Origin: an uncultured Nitrosomonadales bacterium
Lineage (GTDB): Bacteria; Pseudomonadota; Gammaproteobacteria; Burkholderiales; Methylophilaceae
Length of the DNA: 18,974 bases
Direction: 5' to 3'
NCBI GenBank assembly: GCA_946481065.1
Contig: CAMLMA010000017.1
Coordinates: 1-18,974, forward strand
Notes under the pieces: generated by a model
The model's input: the letters and a program-made list of their open reading frames with translations, nothing else
Told to the model about the DNA's origin: nothing
Databases searched by the model: none
Shown here: piece by piece, positions 10,225-11,101 of the stretch
How positions within the stretch are numbered: the first letter of the stretch is position 1
How the letters are laid out: each line of letters starts with the position of its first letter
Program-made: the position numbers and the translations under genes

Positions 10225-10279
10225 TGTCGAATAATCGGCATTATCGACAGATTTTCGACATAATTCTTGTGCATCGACA
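10225..10279. promoter_or_regulatory. Four TGTCGA/TCGACA sites, candidate enhancer for a sigma-54 activator
   Basis: The sites are TGTCGA at 10225-10230 and TCGACA at 10244-10249, 10255-10260 and 10274-10279. Start-to-start spacing is 19, 11 and 19. The first is in the opposite orientation to the other three, and sites 1 and 2 form an imperfect inverted repeat (10226-10248). Relative to a start expected near 10360 from the sigma-54 promoter, they lie about 80-135 bases upstream, where activators of RpoN promoters bind. They are also just upstream of the kinase gene on the other strand. Confidence 0.5.
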
Positions 10280-10332
10280 ATAAAATCGGCGCACAACATC
10301 TTGTAATGCTGCGCTATTCGCGGGATTCGGAC

Positions 10333-10349
10333 TTGGCATGAAAAATGCA
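10333..10349 (+). promoter_or_regulatory. Sigma-54 (RpoN) -24/-12 promoter of the prepilin gene
   Basis: TTGGCATG-AAAA-ATGCA matches the RpoN consensus TTGGCACG-N4-TTGCA, with the invariant GG (10335-10336) and GC (10347-10348) at the correct distance. Only the C-to-T in the -24 box and T-to-A in the -12 box depart from it. Transcription would start about 12 bases on, near 10360, leaving a leader of about 60 bases before the ATG at 10422. Pilin genes in several proteobacteria use this kind of promoter. Confidence 0.65.
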
Positions 10350-10421
10350 CCTGTGACAACAAGCAGCATCATGTCTGCGTTTCCATCTACCATTCAGCGC
10401 CGTTGGGCGAAGGATAACATA

Positions 10422-11060
10422 ATGAAAAAGCAGGTTGGGTTCACCCTGATCGAACTGGCGATCGTACTGGTCATTATCGGCTTGTTATTAGGCGGTGTGC
10501 TTAAGGGTCAAGAGTTGATCAATAGCGCCAAGGTCAAGAATATGGCGAGTGACTTCCGTAATATCCAGGTACAAGTCTATTCCTATCAGGACAAGTTCCG
10601 TGCCTTGCCTGGTGATGACAAGGCTGCCACGACCCATGTAGGCGCCACCAATAATGGCGATGGTGACGGTGTGATTGAGGGTGCGTGGAATGCAACTTCA
10701 GGCGAGACTTTCAACTTTTGGCAGCATATTCGATTGGCTGGCTTGGCGACCGGCAGCACTGTGCTGACTGACGCAACCTACTCGCCAACCAATACCGAGG
10801 GCGGTGCCATAGGCGTACAATCGAATCCGCAGAATACGATCACTGGTCTAAGTGGATCATATGCAGTATGTTCGACCGGTGTCCTGGGTAAGTTTGCCAA
10901 GCAACTCGATTCCGCGCTCGATGACGGGAATGTCGAAACCGGCTCTATGCGTGCAACGGCGGTATCTACTCCGGTGACCGGCACAGCGGCTGTTGCCGCA
11001 ACCGCGGTAACCACCGCCAGTTACGATTCCACGAACATGACGGTCTGCATGGCCTTCTAA
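10422..11060 (+). CDS. Orphan type IV-like prepilin / pseudopilin
   Basis: The 212-residue protein starts MKKQVGFTLIELAIVLVIIG, a class III signal. Prepilin peptidase would cut after Gly6, with methylation at Phe7, and Glu11 is the conserved +5 Glu. A single hydrophobic helix runs from about 8 to 28. The segment DKFRALPGDD (57-66) is common to a group of minor, surface-exposed prepilins in betaproteobacteria. A Thr/Ala/Val-rich low-complexity stretch (178-200) precedes the end. Cys150 and Cys209 could form a C-terminal disulfide loop. The start is fixed by GAAGGA (10409-10414) seven bases upstream; an in-frame ATG at 10338 lies inside the sigma-54 promoter. No other pilus gene is near, so the assembly system must be elsewhere. 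A terminator follows. Confidence 0.88.
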   Translation: MKKQVGFTLIELAIVLVIIGLLLGGVLKGQELINSAKVKNMASDFRNIQVQVYSYQDKFRALPGDDKAATTHVGATNNGDGDGVIEGAWNATSGETFNFWQHIRLAGLATGSTVLTDATYSPTNTEGGAIGVQSNPQNTITGLSGSYAVCSTGVLGKFAKQLDSALDDGNVETGSMRATAVSTPVTGTAAVAATAVTTASYDSTNMTVCMAF

Positions 11061-11074
11061 ATCGCAGTCTTATG

Positions 11075-11101
11075 AAAAGCCCGCCTAGGCGGGCTTTTTT
11101 T
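11075..11101 (+). terminator. Intrinsic terminator of the prepilin gene
   Basis: AAAAGCCCGCC (11075-11085) pairs perfectly with GGCGGGCTTTT (11088-11098) around TA, and the T-run extends to seven (11095-11101). It lies 14 bases after the prepilin stop and separates it from the mla operon. Confidence 0.9.

Follow-up and report, generated by a model that had tools for sequence, protein, structure and literature searches.

Elsewhere, PilR drives the pilin gene pilA together with RpoN; it recognises repeated TGTC sites, and the pilA enhancer lies about 100 bp upstream. Our literature search found no paper on the binding of PilR to TGTC sites at pilA. In a second described system, PrsK/PrsR, a 17-nt motif ending in TTTACA and a sigma-54 motif stand ahead of PEP-CTERM genes and, in a few cases, of other genes, according to passages of the study of Haft and colleagues (PMC1569441). 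An excerpt of another paper reports the RpoN dependence of one PEP-CTERM gene (PMC9850573). For the Methylophilaceae, parts of three papers describe pilus clusters differentially expressed in three members of the family, in passages that do not name the pilin considered here (PMC3728764), the loss of motility and of many two-component systems in planktonic strains (PMC6794327), and one Methylotenera clade without type IV pili (PMC11978286). The losses described in these parts of the last two papers fit the small genomes in which we found no kinase of the type studied here. RpoN two-component control of an MSHA-type pilus was not found in the titles and abstracts of the open-licence literature that we searched.

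Here we analyse an 18,974-nucleotide stretch of DNA from an uncultured member of the Methylophilaceae (hereafter the window), in which a histidine kinase gene on the minus strand and a prepilin gene (prepilin1) on the plus strand diverge from a 225-bp gap. Comparison of this gap and of its genomic context leads us to propose, as the probable reading, that a PrsK/PrsR-like two-component switch, made of the kinase and of an NtrC-family regulator that we call D, drives an MSHA-type pilin through RpoN.

The locus resembles PrsK/PrsR in that an activator motif is followed, at a similar spacing (mean of 62.8 nt in the published passage), by a sigma-54 motif, in that an NtrC-like regulator and a membrane kinase have a cell-surface target, and in that EpsA-like genes, which belong to a PEP-CTERM-associated family, carry the same composite site. 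It differs in its operator, made of TGTCRA-N4-TYGACA pairs and not of the 17-mer ending in TTTACA given in that passage, in its main target, a prepilin, in a kinase and a D that are not in tandem, and in scores that stay below the PrsK and PrsR cutoffs. With PilS/PilR-pilA it would share an RpoN-dependent pilin under a two-component system, with an enhancer about 100 bp upstream, whereas the regulator is a different one, the TGTC sites are inverted instead of repeated, and the machine is of MSHA type. With the MSHA pilus (mshL, mshE, mshG and others) it shares an MshL secretin above cutoff and an MshE-like ATPase with a c-di-GMP-binding domain, but an NtrC-family regulator precedes these genes and the putative sigma-54-driven pilin unit is separate.

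Results

The divergent kinase and prepilin genes

The features of the locus are collected in Table 1. Among the matches listed, all homologues with a named organism are from Methylophilaceae; the closest locus is from a Methylotenera MAG, with a kinase 87% identical, and the kinase of the nearest relative genome, G001, is 87-88% identical to that of the window. By eye, the N terminus of the kinase shows about eight helices with a membrane-spanning look, plus a GAF-like domain. In the predicted structure (mean pLDDT 73.6, pTM 0.45), the N-terminal half is helical, and a small mixed domain and the kinase core are also seen; histidine kinases make up most of its best PDB matches, whose TM-scores over the full model are 0.2-0.3. 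Downstream of the prepilin gene lies a terminator-like hairpin (one found versus 0.9 expected in shuffles), hence prepilin1 may be a single-gene unit; its description as an orphan in the sequence-only reading holds locally only. No RNA family reached its gathering score in the window. At four other loci (L070, L071, L076 and L078), an ORF of 28-41 codons, which contains one hydrophobic stretch, separates the -12 element from prepilin1; by eye, the window has no such short hydrophobic ORF ahead of prepilin1.

Table 1. Features of the kinase/prepilin locus (positions in the window)
Feature	Position	Strand	Basis or remark
Divergent orphan histidine kinase, 561 aa	8511..10196	-	Catalytic half closest to PrsK
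Operator (putative enhancer), 36 bp	10225..10260	+	EM motif, 62 regions; leave-cluster-out
Inverted repeat A, TGTCGA-N4-TCGGCA	10225..10240	+	One mismatch from perfect
Site 2, TGTCGA	10244..10249	-	Out of register; overlaps left arm of repeat B
Inverted repeat B, CGACAG-N4-TCGACA	10245..10260	+	Right arm perfect, left arm degenerate
Site 4, TGTCGA	10274..10279	-	Outside conserved operator; no motif counterpart
Putative -24/-12 sigma-54 promoter, TGGCATGAAAAATGCA	10334..10349	+	GG-N10-GC spacing; comparison
AGGA ribosome-binding site	10411..10414	+	By eye
prepilin1, 212 aa, MKKQVGFTLIE leader	10422..11060	+	Pfam N_methyl above cutoff; homologues
Terminator-like hairpin 3' of prepilin	11074..11099	+	Weak alone; position and T-tract fit

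A conserved putative sigma-54 promoter

The motif TTGGCATGAAAAATGCA at 10333-10349 has its GG at 10335-10336 and its GC at 10347-10348, with 10 bp between them. The exact pattern TGGCAYG-N5-TGC has this sole match in the window, but because 0.24 matches are expected and 43 of 200 shuffles contain at least one, the match is weak in the window alone. Comparison gives it weight. The 80 kinase loci yielded 62 readable kinase-to-prepilin regions, 18 loci being dropped since the adjacent prepilin start was not found; in these regions plus the window, the promoter element occurs in 62 of 63 (only L042 is without it) versus 54 of 2520 shuffled regions. The GG-N10-GC spacing comes with the TGGCAY/TTGC context, the window itself having ATGC and not TTGC. 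All nine distant kinase-prepilin1 gaps that were scanned also have the element, and RpoN is encoded in the relative G002. The -24/-12 element with correct GG/GC spacing, first seen in the sequence-only reading, is thereby confirmed, and transcription of the prepilin gene would start near 10360.

The putative operator is a double dyad

The sequence-only reading had further proposed four regularly spaced TGTCGA sites (19-11-19). TGTCGA/TCGACA hexamers indeed stand at 10225, 10244, 10255 and 10274, in orientations + - - -. They are four of the 18 in the window, where 10.9 are expected, and P for four sites within 49 nt is about 0.00015, uniform placement being assumed and local composition ignored. 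The exact hexamers are poorly kept, however: at least one occurs in 16 of the 63 regions, at least two in 6, and four in the window only. Four equivalent sites are ruled out by the alignment, and conservation in relatives holds for the -24/-12 element but not for the exact TGTCGA sites, in place of which only a looser double dyad is conserved.

When the sequences upstream of the promoter were searched for motifs without supervision in 62 regions, a 36-bp unit emerged, TGTcaaaAttTtgaCA-N4-tGtcgAaaTtTcgACA, with 30.5 bits, while the same search on two shuffled sets gave 9.2 and 9.3 bits. This unit, the putative operator, consists of two tandem 16-bp inverted repeats TGTCRA-N4-TYGACA separated by 4 bp, with centres 20 bp apart, and the first and third of the four hexamers form its outer arms. 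It exceeds 20 bits in 58 of the 62 regions (L039, L050, L051 and L061 are below). When the motif was rebuilt omitting one cluster of related loci at a time, 61 of 62 regions returned the operator at its position with P<0.02, the exception being L061; for the window, the P of 0.016 is the floor of 60 shuffles. Under a stricter scoring (TGTCG/CGACA only), 6 of 10 Methylophilaceae regions and 8 of 9 distant ones reach P<=0.01, with weak spots at L048 (P 0.39) and L073 (P 0.12, not significant). The distant betaproteobacterial loci have paired TGTC-N8/9-GACA-like dyads with gaps of 4-6 bp (P<=0.01 in 8 of 9).

The operator stands 73 bp before the promoter in the window, and across the regions this distance clusters at 60-65, 70-76, 80-84 and 93-96 bp; in the distant loci it is 73-75 bp in six of the eight measured and 83 and 39 bp in the others. 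These classes are suggestive of helical phasing, a signal partly driven by the large 71-73 class. Among further loci, L068 has operator and promoter ahead of a prepilin and L004 a weak dyad pair, and nothing clear was found in the stretch beside the kinase in L046, L064, L065 and L072. In L064 and L065, operator-plus-promoter matches (17.3 and 10.4 bits) lie outside the kinase gap.

An orphan regulator tracks the kinase

The kinase is not in tandem with an NtrC-type regulator, as it would be in a PilS/PilR-pilA arrangement: no NtrC-type motif was found in the flanks of the 80 kinase loci (up to 10 kb, often shorter), tblastn of D against these flanks found no match, and no kinase motif was found in the kilobase beside D. 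Several EBPs are encoded in each of four relatives examined. One of them, D, is an orphan sigma-54 activator with a receiver, an AAA+ domain and a Fis-type helix.

Of 187 Methylophilaceae genomes, 79 have the kinase and 79 have D; 75 have both and 104 have neither (phi 0.912). Eight genomes break the pairing, four with the kinase only (G044, G125, G165 and G173) and four with D only (G066, G140, G161 and G171). A PilR-like EBP was found in 104 genomes (72 with the kinase, 32 without; seven genomes have the kinase only; phi 0.612), and MshL in 102 (71 with the kinase, 31 without; eight have the kinase only; phi 0.607). The kinase thus tracks D more closely than it tracks the machine or PilR. 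These counts hinge on the E-value cuts (1e-40 for the kinase, 1e-110 for D, 1e-130 for PilR-like and 1e-70 for MshL) and on MAG completeness, and they reflect shared ancestry, not independent events. All 13 distant kinase genomes carry D, with 54-65% identity. D was seen in the relatives, and the window's own genome presumably encodes it too.

In-frame stops occur in two of the D-only matches (four in G066, one in G161), and several D matches in kinase genomes likewise show one stop. The four-stop match (G066:C17:11291-12451), in a genome without a kinase match, is consistent with joint loss.

D heads an MSHA-type pilus cluster

In the five relatives that were read (L121-L124 and L131), D heads a run of pilus genes encoding an ExeA/MshM-like ATPase, a secretin, a TPR protein, an MshE-like ATPase and a GspF-like protein, followed farther downstream, where the stretch reaches, by more pilus genes, a PilX-like protein and a second prepilin. 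Three of the five have a same-strand gene ahead of D, so that D is not necessarily where transcription starts. In G001, the run has the two marks of an MSHA-type machine, an MshL secretin (271 bits, cutoff 250) and an MshE-type ATPase whose c-di-GMP motif is over its cutoff; the other proteins of this run fall below the MSHA-named cutoffs, and several were named by eye. No operator above 12 bits was found near D, considering the two best matches per strand in 12 stretches (L121-L132).

Stretches around D were also read in six distant genomes, four of them picked because D and the kinase lay close. In these four (L187-L190), a single cluster holds D, msh genes, prepilin2 and the kinase, and prepilin1 lies on the far side of the kinase; the L190 stretch stops within the kinase gene, and L073, from the same genome, shows prepilin1. 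In L191 and L192 the kinase is absent from the stretch. In the Methylophilaceae read, the kinase-prepilin1 pair is apart from D and the machine genes. On the strength of linkage only, prepilin1 may be assembled by the MSHA-type machine. The 31 genomes with MshL and without the kinase indicate that the machine can run without this switch.

Genomes G067-G076 and G079-G083 have an MshL 48-54% identical and no kinase or D match, so their MSHA-type machine must be regulated differently. In G004 (L130, 5339-7042), two secreted-looking proteins with basic C-termini, PEP-CTERM-like by eye, are encoded some kilobases from msh genes.

Kinship with PrsK and PrsR

The receiver of D, taken alone from G001, matches PrsR at 6.1e-23 and the next family at 8.2e-12, whereas PrsR is not the best family for three other EBP receivers. 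At full length, NtrC and PrsR score 372 versus 357 bits in G001 and 366 versus 360 in G002, and PrsR ranks first in G200; D scores 357-360 bits with PrsR (TIGR02915) in the three genomes, below the cutoff of 502.6. The catalytic half of the window's kinase likewise matches PrsK at 8.5e-20 and the next family at 2.5e-10, and PrsK (TIGR02916) is its best family with 70.9 bits, below the cutoff of 300. The kinases of L080, L014 and L188 are also closest to PrsK; that of L077, the same gene as in L188, gave no match at a stricter cut. The PilS-like kinase scores 78 bits with PrsK, its best family being AtoS. With the curated cutoffs unmet, we speak of kinship with PrsK/PrsR and not of membership. 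Nor does the site have the 17-nt motif ending in TTTACA or precede a PEP-CTERM gene, the target carrying N_methyl. Cutoffs, motif and target together rule out membership in a PEP-CTERM regulon, although the EpsA-like targets keep a link.

The composite site across genomes

We searched with a sequence-only composite model of operator, spacer and promoter, scoring at most 150 candidates per genome. Among the matches listed, the kinase/prepilin gap ranks first in 19 of the 20 genomes that have both kinase and D, and at least four of these 20 (G002, G003, G006 and G012) lie outside the model's sources; in G057, where it is not the top match, the site is weak (10.0 bits). In 20 genomes without kinase and D, the matches listed peak at 19.4 bits. 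Other DNA (1.94 Mb, both strands) gave 22 matches, 19 at the kinase/prepilin gap (one on the opposite strand) and three in the related distant loci L064, L065 and L068, the last followed by a prepilin.

Weaker matches with a proper promoter precede genes for EpsA-like LuxR regulators in L156, L155 and L162, the one in L156 scoring 185.5 bits with TIGR03020 (cutoff 170). A survey of the 500-bp stretches upstream of 20 EpsA-like genes found promoter and operator in 12 of the 13 from kinase/D genomes (P<=0.02, shuffling), at a distance of 61-65 bp in 11 and of 85 bp in one, and neither element in the seven copies taken from five genomes that lack both kinase and D. A model match had led to the choice of five of the 13, four of which pass and one, from G002, fails; the eight chosen blind all pass. 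No operator was found before 26 other, higher-scoring EpsA copies (23 from kinase genomes), which are those with full flanks among the best 30 EpsA matches and of which 13 have a promoter-like element, nor before the remaining four, whose flanks are incomplete. With 12 of 13 versus none elsewhere, the site belongs to one EpsA subgroup, mostly in closely related genomes; the EpsA copy of the nearest relative, G001 (L204), lacks it. The idea of a single-target regulon was dropped, since the EpsA-like genes carry the same composite site.

Three further sites were noted. In G057 (L151, 1500-1616), a gene for an EpsB_2 (XrtA/PEP-CTERM) glycosyltransferase follows a promoter with one good dyad, the operator scoring 1.0 bit. 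In G163 (L153, minus strand, promoter at 1606 of the reverse strand) and G147 (L157, 1608), an operator-like dyad and a -24/-12 element precede an ORF of about 70 codons, for which we found no family match.

Discussion

Comparison between genomes reveals a conserved promoter and a conserved operator geometry and spacing at this gap, linkage and co-occurrence of kinase, D, machine and pilin, and the same site before EpsA-like genes; it thus speaks for an RpoN promoter with an upstream enhancer, and for two-component rather than constitutive control, as the sequence-only reading had suggested. From this pattern we infer phosphotransfer, binding, RpoN dependence and a signal, in the following order. 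The divergent kinase would phosphorylate D, encoded elsewhere in the chromosome. Once phosphorylated, D would bind the double dyad (10225-10260), probably in the form of two dimers that share one DNA face, loop over the 73 bp and open the sigma-54 polymerase at 10334-10349, and pilin production would be confined to times when the signal is on. An EpsA-like regulator gene is probably activated by D as well in some of the relatives.

The alternative that survives best, though we judge it improbable, is that another sigma-54 activator binds the operator and receives the signal of the kinase, or that D binds and answers another kinase. The several other EBPs in each of four genomes leave room for this, the cognate pairing being deduced, and EpsA-like genes occur also without kinase and D; these copies, however, are the ones without the site (0 of 7), and D is the only activator found in one cluster with kinase and pilin and the only one of four receivers tested that ranks PrsR first.

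Slightly less credible is a role for PilR, which, paired with its adjacent PilS-like kinase, would bind the operator, the divergent kinase being unrelated or feeding PilR. A PilR-like EBP, identified as PilR by eye, does accompany the kinase in 72 of its 79 genomes. On the other hand, it stands without the kinase in 32 genomes, of which the 20 scanned have no composite match above the 19.4-bit peak among those listed, the seven kinase genomes without a PilR-like match retain kinase and D, its receiver is not PrsR-like, and a kinase gene lies directly beside it in three of four genomes (G001, G002 and G003). PilR, which the sequence-only reading had taken as its model, is therefore probably not the activator: it is disfavoured by co-occurrence (phi 0.61 vs 0.91 for D), and it is D that is genetically linked, has the PrsR-like receiver and heads the MSHA-type run.

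That the operator serves mainly the divergent kinase gene, by autoregulation, with the prepilin promoter incidentally close, is very unlikely: 28 bp separate the annotated kinase start from the edge of the operator, so that a kinase promoter must overlap or abut the operator, but across families the operator keeps a distance near 73 bp from the -24/-12 element, or else one about one or two helical turns off, and EpsA-like genes have operator and promoter without a kinase. The operator could nonetheless act on both the kinase and the prepilin gene.

We thus retain the switch made of the divergent kinase and D. A wider view of it is possible, if a little doubtful: that the two descend from a PrsKR-like ancestor and act as an adhesion switch, which co-ordinates an MSHA-type pilin and an EpsA-type matrix regulator through one enhancer design, and that the kinase, whose gene points away from that of the pilin, may sense the membrane pool of the pilin. 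The proposed switch would supply the kinase, the regulator, the DNA site and the targets for an MSHA-type pilus, and would link this pilus to a PEP-CTERM-associated family of regulators. The system is testable in culturable methylotrophs, for example Methylotenera and Methylovorus.
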